Below are positions 9,070 through 16,223 of a DNA stretch of 46,792 bases, one piece after another. Both the position numbers and the translations under genes were made by a program. This DNA comes from Candidatus Bathyarchaeota archaeon (GTDB lineage: Archaea > Thermoproteota > Bathyarchaeia > Bathyarchaeales > SOJC01). Within the stretch, counting starts at the first letter, position 1; each line of letters begins with the position of its first letter. The notes beneath the pieces were generated by a model. It searched no databases. It was given only the letters and a program-made list of their open reading frames with translations, and was not told the origin of the DNA. Location: positions 1 to 46,792 of the forward strand of contig JAOUKM010000010.1 in assembly GCA_029882535.1 (NCBI GenBank), given 5' to 3'.

Positions 9070-9377
9070 GGTAATCCAGCCCTACCCAATACTTATGTGT
9101 TTTTGACTTAAAAGGAAAGCGAAACCAGTGACAATGGAGATAGGGAGAGCAACGTGAAAGTGTTCCTTTGCAGAACTAATCATTCTTTAACCTACCACCT
9201 TTTACATCCTCAATTAGATACAAATCTGCAACCTATAGAAAATAGGACGACTTTCACTCATCTCTCAATTTCCGAAACCATTCGTCTTCTTTAAGTAAGA
9301 ATAACAGCAATCAGCTTTTGCGAGCGCCGAGTGAGGGGCGCAATGAAAAAGTACCCAAGATGAATGGAGGAAAAAAT

Positions 9378-10745
9378 TTGAAAATGACAAAATCGCTTGC
9401 TAGAGGTTGTGAAATTACGTTAGTATGCCTTGTGATTTTTGCTCTCGCCTCGTCGAATATCGCTTCGATTTCCGCAGCAATATACACACCAAACAGTATT
9501 CAGACATGGGCCGTGATTGTTTGTGGAGGATCTTCAGGAGGTTCTCAGCAGGAAGATTTCGAAAATGAGATCGCAGAAGCTTATAATACTTTGCTGAGTC
9601 GGGCCTATGATGCTGATCATATCTACTATTTGGATATTACTTTTCCGAGAGACGTTACCGGAGATGGTATTAACGATGTTGATGCCGTATCGAATAAAGC
9701 TAATGTGCAAAATGCCATCACAAGTTGGTTGAAAACTCGCTCGGACAGTAATGACGTGTGCTTCTTGTATCTCGTCAACCACGGCGACGTAGACGCCTTT
9801 ACTATTCCAGGTGGACCCATATATGCCTATGAAATGGCCGGTTGGCTATTTCACGTGACCTATGGTGAACTCATATTCACGCTGGAGGCTTGCCACTCTG
9901 GAAGTTTCATAGATGAACTTAGCGAAACCAATAGGATAATAGTGTCCTCATGTGAGGCAAATGAACTCGCCTGGCCTGATCCAAACACTGACTGGCCTGC
10001 ATTTTCTCACACGTTTTTCCAAAGGCTAGCAGCTATGGATTCCATTGGCGACGCCTTTAACGTAGCGTACCAACATGTTATACAAGTAAGACCAACTCAG
10101 CATCCGACATTAGATGATAACGGTGATGAAGTAGGACATCGTGGACCATTACCAAATGGTGGTGACGGCAATCTAGCACTAAACATGTGTTGGATGCCCG
10201 GTGACTTAGACGATGACGAAATAATAGATATAACCGATATTGCGGCAGTAGCATACGCTTACGGAACGAATTGGACACGAGCCGACATTAATCATGACGG
10301 CATTGTAGAAATGAGGGACGTTGTGATAGTAGCACGCGCTTATGGAACAAGTTGTGATCCGAAATGGGACCAACGAGCTGACCTAAATGACGATTGGATA
10401 ATAGACATTATGGATGTTTCAATAGTAGCACGCGCTTATGGATCAACACCTGGGGATCCAAACTGGGACCCACGAGCCGACATTAATCAGGATGGCGTTG
10501 TAGACATGATAGATATTACGATAGTAAGTAGCGTTTATGGATCAATTTGCGACCCGAGCTGGGATCCACGAGCCGACCTGAACGATGACTGGACAGTAGA
10601 CGATGTAGATCTAGATATAGTATCGCAGGCTTATGGGTCAATTTGCGACCCGAGATGGGATGCACGTGCTGATCTTAATTGCGACTGGGTCATAGATGAC
10701 AATGACATAGACATAGCAAGCACAAACTATGGATATTTTCCATAA
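9378..10745 (+). CDS. Secreted legumain-like (C13) cysteine protease with six dockerin-type calcium loops
   Basis: TTG 9378 is chosen because GGAGG lies 7 nt upstream; ATG 9384 and TTG 9318 are alternatives. A signal peptide covers about residues 1-35. The caspase/legumain-like domain follows (about 40-280): YLVNHGD gives the catalytic His (H135) and LEACHSGSF the catalytic Cys (C172). The C-terminal 180 residues hold six DxNxDxxxD loops (GDLDDDEIID, ADINHDGIVE, ADLNDDWIID, ADINQDGVVD, ADLNDDWTVD, ADLNCDWVID). These equal three type I dockerin modules joined by CDPxWDxRADLN linkers. Dockerins bind cohesins and calcium; no cohesin gene is in this window. Asn-specific cleavage, as in legumain, is inference. 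A T-rich stretch after the stop (from 10808) could end the transcript. Confidence 0.8.
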   Translation: MKMTKSLARGCEITLVCLVIFALASSNIASISAAIYTPNSIQTWAVIVCGGSSGGSQQEDFENEIAEAYNTLLSRAYDADHIYYLDITFPRDVTGDGINDVDAVSNKANVQNAITSWLKTRSDSNDVCFLYLVNHGDVDAFTIPGGPIYAYEMAGWLFHVTYGELIFTLEACHSGSFIDELSETNRIIVSSCEANELAWPDPNTDWPAFSHTFFQRLAAMDSIGDAFNVAYQHVIQVRPTQHPTLDDNGDEVGHRGPLPNGGDGNLALNMCWMPGDLDDDEIIDITDIAAVAYAYGTNWTRADINHDGIVEMRDVVIVARAYGTSCDPKWDQRADLNDDWIIDIMDVSIVARAYGSTPGDPNWDPRADINQDGVVDMIDITIVSSVYGSICDPSWDPRADLNDDWTVDDVDLDIVSQAYGSICDPRWDARADLNCDWVIDDNDIDIASTNYGYFP

Positions 10746-10971: not shown

Positions 10972-11643
10972 CTATGGATAATCAACGCGGTATATTTTGC
11001 CTTTGCCATTGTCGAAGAGTTTGGTGAAGTGTTGCGGGTGTAGCGTATCATCAAATAGAAGACGTAACAATGTCGCTTGGGAACCAAGCATTGTAGGGTG
11101 ATATTCATCGCCTTGTAGAGTTAGGTACTCTGTTGCATTATAGCCGGCGATTTCAGCAATCCAACAGAACTTCTGTAAGTCGTCTGGTGTAAAAACCAAC
11201 GCGTACGATACGTCGTAATTTCTCATAATGGGCAAAGACTGTTCTTCTGGCAACATGAATACCCTCGCCAAGTCATGAATCTTTTCTGAAGAGCCCCATG
11301 TTCCGAAAAGTTGTGCTCCCAAGTTATGCCACGGATTTCGACTTGACCCAACAGTGTACCATATATCTCTTGACGGATAAGCTTCGATTACTTCTCTATG
11401 GCTCCATTCTCTAACCGCACGGCCGTAATCCCACCAGCAAAGTATTACTGAATTAGGAGGCGTGAGTTGTTCAAGCTGAGCGAAAGCCTCTGGCATCCCT
11501 TCTTGCTGGGAGAAGTACTTGAGAACAGCATCTTCTCTCTCTACAAAGCGGATTCTCAGAGCAACTGATATCAAAGCAACAACTAGAACAATAATGGCAA
11601 GTATAATAGCAAACCACTTACTACGCCAGAATTTTGTTTTCAT
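10972..11643 (-). CDS. Single-TM protein with stand-alone WWDYG (STT3/AglB C-terminal type) domain
   Basis: The 223-residue product has one N-terminal TM helix (about 10-30) and an outward soluble domain. Residues 70-74 are WWDYG, in LCWWDYGRAVREW, the hallmark of the catalytic subunit of oligosaccharyltransferase. The segments that follow (a GSS/LGAQLFG region, and DVSYALVF near 150) also fit the globular C-terminal domain of AglB/STT3. The 11-13 TM domain that binds the lipid-linked glycan is absent, and no DK/MI-type helix is obvious. It cannot be a complete transferase. It is the third gene of an operon, 34 bp after the ABC ATPase. A peptide-binding or sequon-recognition helper role is inference. 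Confidence 0.65.
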   Translation of the reverse strand: MKTKFWRSKWFAIILAIIVLVVALISVALRIRFVEREDAVLKYFSQQEGMPEAFAQLEQLTPPNSVILCWWDYGRAVREWSHREVIEAYPSRDIWYTVGSSRNPWHNLGAQLFGTWGSSEKIHDLARVFMLPEEQSLPIMRNYDVSYALVFTPDDLQKFCWIAEIAGYNATEYLTLQGDEYHPTMLGSQATLLRLLFDDTLHPQHFTKLFDNGKGKIYRVDYP

Positions 11644-11677
11644 AAGTATAATTCTCCTATTGAGGATAGGCTAAAGG

Positions 11678-12574
11678 TTAGGTGACGACTCCCATGCGAT
11701 GGAGCTCTTCGTCTAGACTGGTTTTCGTTTGCTTCAGATTCTGTCTTCTCTCTACATATTCGTCACCGCTTATCTTGTTGGCTTTGAAGTCTTCGTCAAG
11801 TTTTACTAGTTGTGCATCAATGTCTGTTATCCTTGCTCTGAGTTGATCTACATATGAGACTGCCGCTTCTTCTTTCACGATTTGTGCTGGGGTGAGTGCA
11901 GCTTTGATTATTCCGTCTTCTATTTTCAGTATGCGGTCTGCTGCCCGTGCCATGTTAGGGTCATGGGTCACCATTATGATAGTTTTGCCAAGTTCCTCGT
12001 TCACCTTCACCAAATAGTCCACGACAATCTTAGCATTGACCGTATCCAACTCGCCTGTTGGCTCGTCTGCCAATAACACTGGAGCGTCATTCGCCAATGC
12101 CGCAGACATAGCTACACGCTGTTGCTCACCCCCACTTATCTCGTCTGGCTTGTGGTTGGCGCGTTCTGTTAGACCCACTATTTCCAATAGTTGCTTAACT
12201 CTCTCATGACGAGATCCACGAGAGGCTCCCATTGCTATCATGGGTAGTTCGATGTTTTCGGCGGCGGTTAGTGTTGGAATAAGATTTAAAGTTTGGAAAA
12301 TGTGACCTACATGTTTCCTTCGAAAATCTACCAATTGTGAAGGCTGCAAAGCGGTCACCGTTACATCACCTACTTGCACGTAGCCAGCGGTTGCTTTGTC
12401 AAGCCCTCCTACTATGTTGAGTAGTGTAGTTTTGCCACTTCCACTCGGCCCGATAACAGAGATCATTTCTCCCTCTTTTACGTCCATATTTAAGCCTCTA
12501 AGGGCTTGAACTTCAACATTTCCCAAACGGTATACCCGGATCAAATCTTTCACTAGCACTTTCATGCCTTTCAA
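11678..12574 (-). CDS. ABC transporter ATP-binding protein, MacB/LolD type, with coiled-coil tail
   Basis: The 298-residue protein has Walker A GPSGSGKTT (about residues 42-50), a Q-loop, signature SGGEQQRVA and Walker B VLLADEPTGELD, with the H-loop in VTHDPNMARAADR. The first 230 residues are a standard MacB/LolD-type ATPase. The last 65 are a charged coiled coil (YVDQLRARITDIDAQL onward), which is unusual and may contact the permease or itself. Its ATG overlaps the permease stop by 4 bp, showing translational coupling. It would power a mechanotransmission exporter, not import. Confidence 0.88.
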   Translation of the reverse strand: MKGMKVLVKDLIRVYRLGNVEVQALRGLNMDVKEGEMISVIGPSGSGKTTLLNIVGGLDKATAGYVQVGDVTVTALQPSQLVDFRRKHVGHIFQTLNLIPTLTAAENIELPMIAMGASRGSRHERVKQLLEIVGLTERANHKPDEISGGEQQRVAMSAALANDAPVLLADEPTGELDTVNAKIVVDYLVKVNEELGKTIIMVTHDPNMARAADRILKIEDGIIKAALTPAQIVKEEAAVSYVDQLRARITDIDAQLVKLDEDFKANKISGDEYVERRQNLKQTKTSLDEELHRMGVVT

Positions 12575-15387
12575 GCTCTCACAATCCTATCCAGTTTTGA
12601 AACATATCTTTTTGTGATGGCAATTACTGGGAATATCGAGGAGGCAAAAACCAGAATCAACGATGCTGACAGAGTTAGTATGGCGTCTGGTGGAAATACC
12701 ATGCGATGAGCTACCAGTGTGACATATTGAGTTGTGTTAAGGGCAACTATTCTGCCATGGACTATGATTAGGCCGACCACGACTCCCAAAGTGACTGAGA
12801 AAACTACAATGGACAGGTTTTCTGCAAGAAGCATTGTTATCAACTGCTTGAAAGAGAGACCGCGAACGTTCATTATAGTTAATTCTTTCTTACGCTCTTG
12901 CAAACTTACCAGCGCTACCAGAGCTGTGGCTACTGAAGCCGCTACTACTGCAAAGATAACACCGATTCGCTGAACGTTTGCGGTGCCACTCAACAATAAA
13001 TTGCCCTCTCGCTGCCCAAGTTGTTCCGCAACAGAGTAAACATAACTAATATCACTTGAGTTGAGATTTCGAATCTGAGAAGCTACACTTGTTCCATTCG
13101 CATTTGTTTCAAGTTTGACTAGAATTCTTCCCGACGCAGAGACAGAGCCATCCAATGAGTGATACAAGTTTGTGGGGACATAAGACCAAAATGAGGAACC
13201 TAGGTAAAAATCGCTAGGTCTGAAAACAGGTTGAGACCCTCCACTGATTTCAGAACCGAAAAATCCCACCACTCTTAGCTTCATCGTTGTGTAGCCCATT
13301 TTGAGAGTAATATAGTCATCTATCTCGAGATCCAAGTTGCTTGCTGTTGCCCGTTCTAGAATGATTGTGCTGTTGTCGGTAGTCATTTGTTGAAATGCTG
13401 TTGTGACATCGTTTCCTGTAAACCATTCATTTTCGTAGTATGCTGTAGAAAGCCATTCTTGAGGCTCTATTGCAACTAGTTTCAGACTTTGAAAACTAGT
13501 TTCTCCATAAAAGGAATATTCTAAGGTTGTAGACGCTATTCTTGGTAAATCTGCTATGTCTCCCATGACGCCCGTGGCGTTAGCTAGACTGTTTAGCGAG
13601 ACGCTTATATCTGCACCTACATTTGCTTTGACTTGGCGAATTATATAGTCCTCTTCACTGGCGAGGGCGCCAACCGTTTGAAAGCCGTAGCCAATTATCA
13701 TGGCGATTAAGAAGGCAACTGAAGCGGTTCTTGCTGGGTTTCTTCGCACGTTTTTTGTTGCCAACATTCCCAAGTCTCCAAGAAATTTTGCTGCTCTTGT
13801 TACTAGTTCTTGAAATCCTAAAGATCCGCGGACGAAGATTTTTGTGAATCCCCAGAAGAAAAGCAACGGTCCGATGGGTGTTAGTATGCTATCGATGATT
13901 ATCCATGCTGCTAATAGGATTGTGAGGAATATGTTTGTCGTTGGCGGAGGGCGTCCCATAAAGTATTGCATCAAGTCTGGTATGCCCATGAGAAACATGC
14001 TTATCTTGTAGCTGCCTAGGAAGAGAGCTGCCCAAGGCCATTTTTGCTTGTAGGGTTTCGTCTCCTCTACATACATATACTCTTTCAAAGCATCTACGGT
14101 AGGCAGCTTTGCAGCTCTTCTTGAGGGTCTAAAGGTCGAAAGAAGGGTTATGCCAGTGCTAAAAATAATGGCCAAAATTATGACCTCTGGTGTTAATATT
14201 GGAGATGTTCCGCCAAACTCACTTCCTATTGCGGTAACGAAGTAGGGGCTGAGTAAGAAGCTTAGGCCGACGCCGATGAGACCTCCTACAATCCCAACTA
14301 GTAATGATTCTGACAAAAATAAGCGGAAAAGTTGTCCAGAAGAGAAACCTTTGGCTGATAGTAGGCCTATCTCTCGTCGTCTCAAGTTGAAAGACACATC
14401 GGAGACGGTTGATCCGACATACCATGCCACAAAAAACACAGGAAGAGCCACAACTAAGAAAGCGATCCTCATCCTTACAGAATTAAACTGGGCACTCATC
14501 AAAACATTTCGCAGGTTACTGTAGGCAGTTATGCCAAATTCTGCCACTTCGTTGTTTATCTGCAGAATAATGCGATTGATAGTTTCTTGTGAAGCCCCAA
14601 TATCCCATGGATTTATCACTGCTTCTCGGTCGATGAACACTAGAATATCAGTGCCGAAGGGGCTATATGATGGATGAATTGCATAGATATCGTCTAGAAG
14701 TTTGGCAAATGTTTTTTCCCAGCTTACGATGAGAAGATTGCCATAATAAATCACCTTAGCATCTTCCTGTATCGAGGGTGTGTAGACTATCGAGCCGTCA
14801 CTGCTCCAATATTGCCCGGAAACAAGATCATACGCTGTCTCGTCCAAGTCTACAAAGCCTGCGACTTTGAGCTGCAAGCTTATATTCTTCTCAGTATATG
14901 GGTAAGTCCGAAAAGTATAGTTGAATATTAACGTGTCGTTTATCTTCAGTTTATCTACATCTTGAGACCCAATCCACACATAAGTTTCATTTTCCTGAAG
15001 TGGGCTAGCACCAGATGTGACGTTCAAACCACTATAAACTCGTGAATCTTCAAATATTCCCACTATCTTGGAGAAGGTATAGTTTTCTTCAACCACCTCT
15101 TCAAACAACTCAACTCTGGAAATAATCTCTGTATCAACTACACCGCCAACTAAGGTAACATTTTCAGCAGCATTCGTCCAGTTAGCCGAGGCTAGTGGTA
15201 AGCCATATCGCCCACATGTAATGTCCACTAGAACTCGACTCAGCTGCTGGTTCAGAGCGGCTTTAGCAGTTGTATCCGCACCAATGTTTATGCCCGCAAA
15301 AAAAGTAGATGCTAGAACAACGCCTAAAAGCAACGCAGCAAACAGTCCTAAAGAACGCGTAACTCTTTTCAAGGCGTAGGAAAACAC
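12571..15387 (-). CDS. FtsX/MacB-type ABC transporter permease, duplicated core
   Basis: The 938-residue protein starts at GTG. It has a TM helix near residues 12-32, then an extracytoplasmic domain of about 270 residues. The first FtsX core has three TM helices (about 305-430) with the typical RRREIGLLSAKGFS motif. One or two middle TM segments lie at about 455-520. After RNPARTASVAFLIAM a second extracytoplasmic domain (about 590-800) precedes a second FtsX core (about 805-930, with ERKKELTIMNVRGLS). This is the duplicated layout of large MacB-like exporters and lipoprotein movers. The partner ATPase overlaps its end. Cargo is unknown; a secreted peptide or lipid-linked product would fit the operon. 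Confidence 0.85.
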   Translation of the reverse strand: MFSYALKRVTRSLGLFAALLLGVVLASTFFAGINIGADTTAKAALNQQLSRVLVDITCGRYGLPLASANWTNAAENVTLVGGVVDTEIISRVELFEEVVEENYTFSKIVGIFEDSRVYSGLNVTSGASPLQENETYVWIGSQDVDKLKINDTLIFNYTFRTYPYTEKNISLQLKVAGFVDLDETAYDLVSGQYWSSDGSIVYTPSIQEDAKVIYYGNLLIVSWEKTFAKLLDDIYAIHPSYSPFGTDILVFIDREAVINPWDIGASQETINRIILQINNEVAEFGITAYSNLRNVLMSAQFNSVRMRIAFLVVALPVFFVAWYVGSTVSDVSFNLRRREIGLLSAKGFSSGQLFRLFLSESLLVGIVGGLIGVGLSFLLSPYFVTAIGSEFGGTSPILTPEVIILAIIFSTGITLLSTFRPSRRAAKLPTVDALKEYMYVEETKPYKQKWPWAALFLGSYKISMFLMGIPDLMQYFMGRPPPTTNIFLTILLAAWIIIDSILTPIGPLLFFWGFTKIFVRGSLGFQELVTRAAKFLGDLGMLATKNVRRNPARTASVAFLIAMIIGYGFQTVGALASEEDYIIRQVKANVGADISVSLNSLANATGVMGDIADLPRIASTTLEYSFYGETSFQSLKLVAIEPQEWLSTAYYENEWFTGNDVTTAFQQMTTDNSTIILERATASNLDLEIDDYITLKMGYTTMKLRVVGFFGSEISGGSQPVFRPSDFYLGSSFWSYVPTNLYHSLDGSVSASGRILVKLETNANGTSVASQIRNLNSSDISYVYSVAEQLGQREGNLLLSGTANVQRIGVIFAVVAASVATALVALVSLQERKKELTIMNVRGLSFKQLITMLLAENLSIVVFSVTLGVVVGLIIVHGRIVALNTTQYVTLVAHRMVFPPDAILTLSASLILVFASSIFPVIAITKRYVSKLDRIVRA

Positions 15388-15560: not shown

Positions 15561-16223
15561 TTGAAGCTAAACCGAGCTTTGTTCGTATTTCTCTTAGCTA
15601 CGGTTATAGTTTCTTCTTTCTCAGCGATAGTCTATGCACATAGAAACAAGCCCTTTTCAGTTACTTTTGGAATAGACCAACACAATTTATTAGTAATCTC
15701 CATCCCCTTCGTTCTGACAGTAGAACATAACGACAGACTGCCCCCTCTCAACCAATCAACGCGAACGTATATCTGCAGTTTTATCAAGAACAATCCTGGG
15801 ATTCATTTTAGAGGTATATGCAACAGCCTAAACATCTCCATTGGAGTAGCACAGTATCATCTAGGCCTCCTTACAAAGGCAGGATTGCTTTCAATATTCC
15901 GAGACGGACGATACAAAAGATATTTCAAATCAAACAGGTTCACGAAGAGAGAGATGACTATAATTTCTCTTCTTAGACACCAAACTGCAAAAGGAATCCT
16001 CTCAATTCTATTGGAAAGAAAATATGTATCGCACAACGAATTGGCTTCTGAACTCTCTATATCTTCTCAAGCTTTGACATGGCAGATAAGCCGTTTGGAG
16101 AGAGCTGGGATTATTCAACGAGCAAAAGACAAAATGAAAACGGCTTACTTCCTAAATGAAGCCAAAGCCTTAGCAATGAGACGATGTATCAATTTCCTTG
16201 ATGCGCGAGCATACAAAAAATAA
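15561..16223 (+). CDS. Membrane-anchored regulator with two winged-helix domains
   Basis: The 220-residue product (TTG start) opens with a signal-anchor helix (about 5-25). A short outward or linker region follows (about 26-65). The first winged helix (about 70-125) contains IKNNPGIHFRGICNSLNIS, and GVAQYHLGLLTKAGLL is its recognition helix. The second (about 130-205) has SHNELASELSISSQALTWQ. Archaeal regulators with an N-terminal TM and C-terminal paired MarR/ArsR-like domains are common next to exporters. This one is divergent from the ABC/WWDYG operon, and control of that operon is a reasonable inference. How the N-terminus lies across the membrane is not certain. Confidence 0.75.
   Translation: MKLNRALFVFLLATVIVSSFSAIVYAHRNKPFSVTFGIDQHNLLVISIPFVLTVEHNDRLPPLNQSTRTYICSFIKNNPGIHFRGICNSLNISIGVAQYHLGLLTKAGLLSIFRDGRYKRYFKSNRFTKREMTIISLLRHQTAKGILSILLERKYVSHNELASELSISSQALTWQISRLERAGIIQRAKDKMKTAYFLNEAKALAMRRCINFLDARAYKK

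Follow-up and report, generated by a model that had tools for sequence, protein, structure and literature searches.

Oligosaccharyltransferases of the AglB/STT3/PglB family carry a C-terminal CC unit in which the WWDYG motif and the DK (or MI) motif form the pocket for the sequon Ser/Thr (+2). In crystals of AglB C-terminal domains this pocket forms before or without peptide (PMC3703281). On the sugar side, the essential Y468 of PglB forms a hydrogen bond with the sugar of the lipid-linked donor (PMC6215017). The DGGK motif is presumed to bind the donor, and TACK archaea and eukaryotes have DNxTZNx[T/S] as the corresponding motif (PMC8342417). Among transporters, the E. coli type VII ABC system YbbAP-TesA combines a duplicated-FtsX permease with an outside partner (PMC12646458). 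MacB, LolCDE, FtsEX and BceAB belong to the type VII ABC superfamily. To our knowledge, none of these four has a WWDYG partner. In the literature searched, we found no description of a free-standing transferase peptide-recognition domain or of its combination with an exporter.

The window, by which we mean the whole analysed stretch of 46,792 nucleotides, belongs to an uncultured Bathyarchaeota archaeon and holds a leftward three-gene operon in the order permease, ATPase and WWDYG protein (Table 1). The operon layout described in the sequence-only reading was correct in its coordinates, including the 4-bp overlap of the permease and ATPase genes (12571-12574) and the 34-bp gap between the ATPase and WWDYG genes. 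TAGGAG lies upstream of the ATG of the WWDYG gene, and this gene is probably co-transcribed with that of the ATPase.

Table 1. Features of the operon and its neighbours in the window.
Feature	Position	Strand	Remarks
C13 (legumain-like) peptidase with dockerin repeats	9318-10745	+	Probably secreted; convergent to the WWDYG gene
WWDYG-only protein, family W1	10972-11643	-	223 aa, ATG start; N-terminal TM anchor and complete AglB/STT3 CC unit
DK motif DxxKxxxI (DLQKFCWI), residues 155-162	11158-11181	-	Lys158 of the Ser/Thr pocket; hhalign, alignment
Residues 75-91, lipid-linked-sugar side in transferases	11371-11421	-	Arg-Ala and Glu-Ala-Tyr-Pro-Ser replace Tyr-Trp and DNxT
WWDYG motif, residues 70-74	11422-11436	-	Ser/Thr +2 pocket; alignment
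Single TM helix, ~residues 11-30	11554-11613	-	Hydropathy; helix 9-46 in the model; K/R-rich N terminus precedes
ABC ATPase, MacB/LolD-type	11678-12574	-	298 aa, TTG start; C-terminal extension of ~70 aa
Permease, duplicated FtsX-type	12571-15387	-	938 aa, GTG start; ~10 TM, two large extracytoplasmic domains
Membrane-anchored regulator, two winged-HTH domains	15561-16223	+	Pfam; divergent from the permease

The permease had been read as a duplicated FtsX/MacB protein, and Pfam found two FtsX stretches in it. Its topology was taken from the sequence (hydropathy TM regions at residues 8-37, 301-421, 554-577 and 805-926), and its AlphaFold model (pLDDT 34) was too poor for a fold search. The ATPase matched ABC_tran of Pfam. 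Its C-terminal extension (~residues 228-298), which had been read as a coiled-coil tail, gave only weak coiled-coil-like matches. The permease has an FtsX-type domain in which a large outer domain separates TM1 from TM2, and this, together with an ATPase of the MacB/LolD type, places the transporter among the type VII ABC systems. The best sequence matches were MacB, YtrF and LolC for the permease and MJ0796, MacB and LolD for the ATPase. The locus resembles YbbAP-TesA in its duplicated FtsX halves, ~10 TM helices, a large outer domain after each of TM1 and TM7, separate MacB/LolD-like ATPase and co-located gene for an outside partner; a PDB scan gave no significant sequence match between the permease and YbbP. 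The putative partner encoded next to the Bathyarchaeota ATPase, however, is not a hydrolase but an AglB-like domain that has a TM anchor of its own. The permease carries 14 sequons where 6.3 are expected. This enrichment is not specific, since the exporter of genome G037, which goes without the WWDYG domain, has 18.

We identified the 223-residue protein as a free AglB/STT3 C-terminal domain. Its match to Pfam STT3-PglB_core was weak and below cut-off (E=0.11), and the protein would therefore probably escape routine annotation. Human STT3A was matched by phmmer at E=4e-7; the two matching stretches, around WWDYG and the DK motif, are collinear. With hhalign, residues 49-223 aligned to 15 AglB C-terminal regions (probability 99.75%, E=2e-27) over the whole CC unit, which bears out the sequence-only assignment. 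A profile of ten free domains reached STT3A at ~2e-13, as well as the domains of Archaeoglobus fulgidus AglB-S2 and AF_0329. The AlphaFold model was middling (pLDDT 68.5); its top Foldseek matches (E=8e-9 to 5e-7) were STT3 chains and the C-terminal domain of A. fulgidus AglB-S2 (PDB 3vu0), the best isolated solved relative. Both Foldseek and profile comparison thus give the CC-unit fold, and the homology detected by the three methods rules out a chance WWDYG match. The unit has ~175 residues, compared with 152-181 in most solved units (PMC3703281), and in the hhalign alignment the segment after WWDYG is ~24 residues longer than in the transferases. Judging from the charged N terminus and from the location of the domain in AglB, the N terminus probably lies inside and the domain outside. 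Whether a full AglB is present elsewhere in the genome had also been raised, and we found one of 735 aa with its own WWDYG. A split AglB, in which the free domain completes a truncated transferase, was not seen and was set aside: the STT3-family frames of these genomes have 735-812 aa, apart from a single one of 534 aa in the fragmented genome G114, and those read through have their own WWDYG.

We then compared the motifs in 42 aligned sequences, namely 27 AglBs and 15 free domains of the family W1 and a second WWDYG-only family, W2. WWD was present in 42/42 sequences and WWDYG in 15/15 free domains, a WWDYG count biased upward since the rows were gathered by a script demanding these letters. 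The counts of Lys158, Tyr-Trp and DNxT are free of this bias. The DK Lys was found in 41/42 sequences and in 14/15 free domains. The sugar side was different: Tyr/Asn-Trp after WWDYG occurred in 27/27 AglBs and in none of the 15 free domains, and the same counts were obtained for D[NG]xT (the full double sequon is present in 23 of the 27 AglBs). The residue after WWDYG was always Arg in W1 and always His in W2, and Arg75 of the window protein aligned with Tyr468 of PglB (5ogl 444-479 against residues 51-86). The window protein therefore shares with the oligosaccharyltransferases the WWDYG C-terminal domain and the DK motif that completes the Ser/Thr pocket, but falls outside the family on its catalytic features. 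It has neither the 13-TM catalytic region with DXD and the EL5 TIXE/SVSE nor the Tyr-Trp after WWDYG nor a DGGK/DNxTZNx[T/S] motif, and it has its own TM anchor.

Judged by these motifs, the free domains look like catalytically stripped sequon readers. Since the pocket is kept and the sugar-side elements are gone, they would bind Asn-X-Ser/Thr without glycan transfer. In the transferases the Ser/Thr pocket acts jointly with the TM region and the EL5 loop, and as the free domain has neither, it may bind sequons very weakly. Another explanation is that the CC fold persists as a scaffold for a new ligand (another peptide, a lipid or a glycan) in a protein that partners membrane machines on the outside; WWDYG would then serve mainly for folding. 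The Arg or His fixed after WWDYG suggests new roles at the site, and W1 and W2 are strongly different elsewhere, with an identity of ~25%. We consider a new ligand a close rival of the sequon reader, if somewhat less likely. Against it, the separate pocket Lys is also retained (14/15), which would not be needed just for folding around WWDYG.

W1 was present in 11/257 genomes of the class (three copies broken or cut) and on contig JABXGV, while W2 was found in 8/257, with some copies broken. Among 398 genomes across the phylum, the matches outside the order of the window were AglB frames of ~500-960 aa, together with some short frames that look cut by contig ends. For other archaeal phyla, coverage was limited to a single pattern scan across the genome collection. 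No relative of the free domain was confirmed on viral contigs, and viral spread was set aside on this ground. In the tree, W1 and W2 lay on the same side of a 99% branch separating AglB, which fits one origin, a grouping that may be helped by the shared loss of motifs and by long branches. Two further observations were made around W2. In G188, one frame (L107:7187-8113) holds the first half of a W2-type domain followed by NosD beta-helix/dockerin-like repeats recognised by eye, and is either a chimera or an assembly join. In G043 and G121, a small multi-TM protein, alike in both, follows the W2-type gene (L027:4584-5417 and L103:1031-1669).

W1 is under purifying selection, with dN/dS of 0.06-0.12 where dS was measurable. 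Several copies are nonetheless broken, by a stop near the C terminus (L026), a frameshift (G169) or a truncation (G103), which means that the gene is dispensable. The same copies would be expected if W1 were a functionless, decaying fragment of an AglB paralog. Such decay is very improbable given a dN/dS of ~0.1 across genera, the 64-83% identity of eight W1 sequences across their full length and the conserved operon spacing.

To see how far the exporter and the domain go together, we scored exporter presence by a permease threshold of E<=1e-80 and found it in 84/257 genomes of the class. The WWDYG gene adjoins the exporter in only five of these, and 79/84 have no adjacent gene. It follows the ATPase gene by 32-35 bp in the window genome (G000), G051, G009, G003 and contig JABXGV; in G005 the ATPase is broken by an N run and fragments of the permease occur at other places in the scaffold, so that linkage is probable. 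The exporters with linkage group in a single clade (99% SH-aLRT) whose sister exporters, in G160 and G152-G154, have no adjacent WWDYG gene. Since they are monophyletic, the linkage most simply arose once, and it was kept in six genomes through the turnover of most flanking genes. Recurrence beside FtsX-type ABC genes is thus narrower than the sequence-only reading implied: it holds for one exporter clade, and in six genomes the WWDYG gene or its remnants lie away from the exporter, beside infB, EamA or other genes. The peptide-recognition role proposed there would fit the kept WWDYG and DK motifs and the lost sugar-side residues, while its tie to the exporter is limited to that clade.

The only flanking gene common to linked loci is the divergent winged-HTH gene, which has an ortholog of 57% identity at the same place in G051 and is absent there in G003 and G009. 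It possibly controls the operon. The C13-dockerin peptidase is not beside the WWDYG gene in relatives and was dismissed as a conserved neighbour. Within the operon, L016 differs from the window (10972-12574) with a dS of 0.19 in the ATPase and 0.79 in the adjoining WWDYG gene, which suggests recombination or gene replacement. G169 and G160 share a different neighbourhood from that of the exporter clade, with the W1 gene downstream of an apparent infB, which encodes a translation factor (L100:7513-9923, L097:7244-10915).

Across the class, the exporter co-occurs with W1 in 8/11 genomes and is found in 76/246 others (Fisher p=0.007, without phylogenetic control). In G048, G160 and G103 both are present at separate places, and no exporter ortholog was found in G113, G114 and G169, which all have the WWDYG gene or a remnant of it. 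With unlinked and exporter-less copies, and so many exporters going without the gene, the WWDYG protein is not an obligate exporter subunit. The free domain could instead partner AglB, as an accessory acceptor-binder or a competitor that hands over or shields sequons, the operon link being mere co-regulation. This is a close rival, only slightly less likely than the reading that we favour. The exporter-less genomes and the conserved Ser/Thr pocket speak for it, as does an STT3-family AglB in 16/17 searched free-domain genomes (the lone exception is 64% complete). However, this co-occurrence tells little, given how widespread AglB is among archaea. Moreover, at the examined loci none of the free-domain genes had aglB as a neighbour, and the exporter linkage was maintained in one clade despite the turnover of its flanks.

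Our tentative preference is for a sequon reader without catalytic activity, which a type VII ABC machine took up in one lineage. The peptide-recognition domain of AglB/STT3, as a membrane-anchored copy outside the cell, would have turned non-catalytic, and its Ser/Thr (+2) pocket, made of WWDYG and the DK Lys, would hold Asn-X-Ser/Thr segments. In the lineage of the window, a single recruitment event would have made it the outside partner of a YbbAP/MacB-like machine encoded in the same operon, an arrangement for which YbbAP-TesA is a precedent. Type VII ABC systems of such build often move outer domains rather than export proteins. Recognition of sequon-bearing surface proteins would be coupled to the ATP-driven motion of the permease outer domains. 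The WWDYG protein would make physical contact with the permease and might have an effect on glycosylation or secretion. That the stripped domain reads sequons for surface quality control, with the type VII machine sensing unglycosylated Asn-X-Ser/Thr on exported proteins, is a more specific proposal and an improbable one.

Both domain and transporter belong to known kinds, and what is new is the free, stripped form of the domain. With its pocket kept and its sugar-side motifs lost, it is a natural separation-of-function variant. It would allow tests of how far the C-terminal domain recognises sequons unaided, and of whether there are archaea that read glycosylation sites but leave them unmodified.
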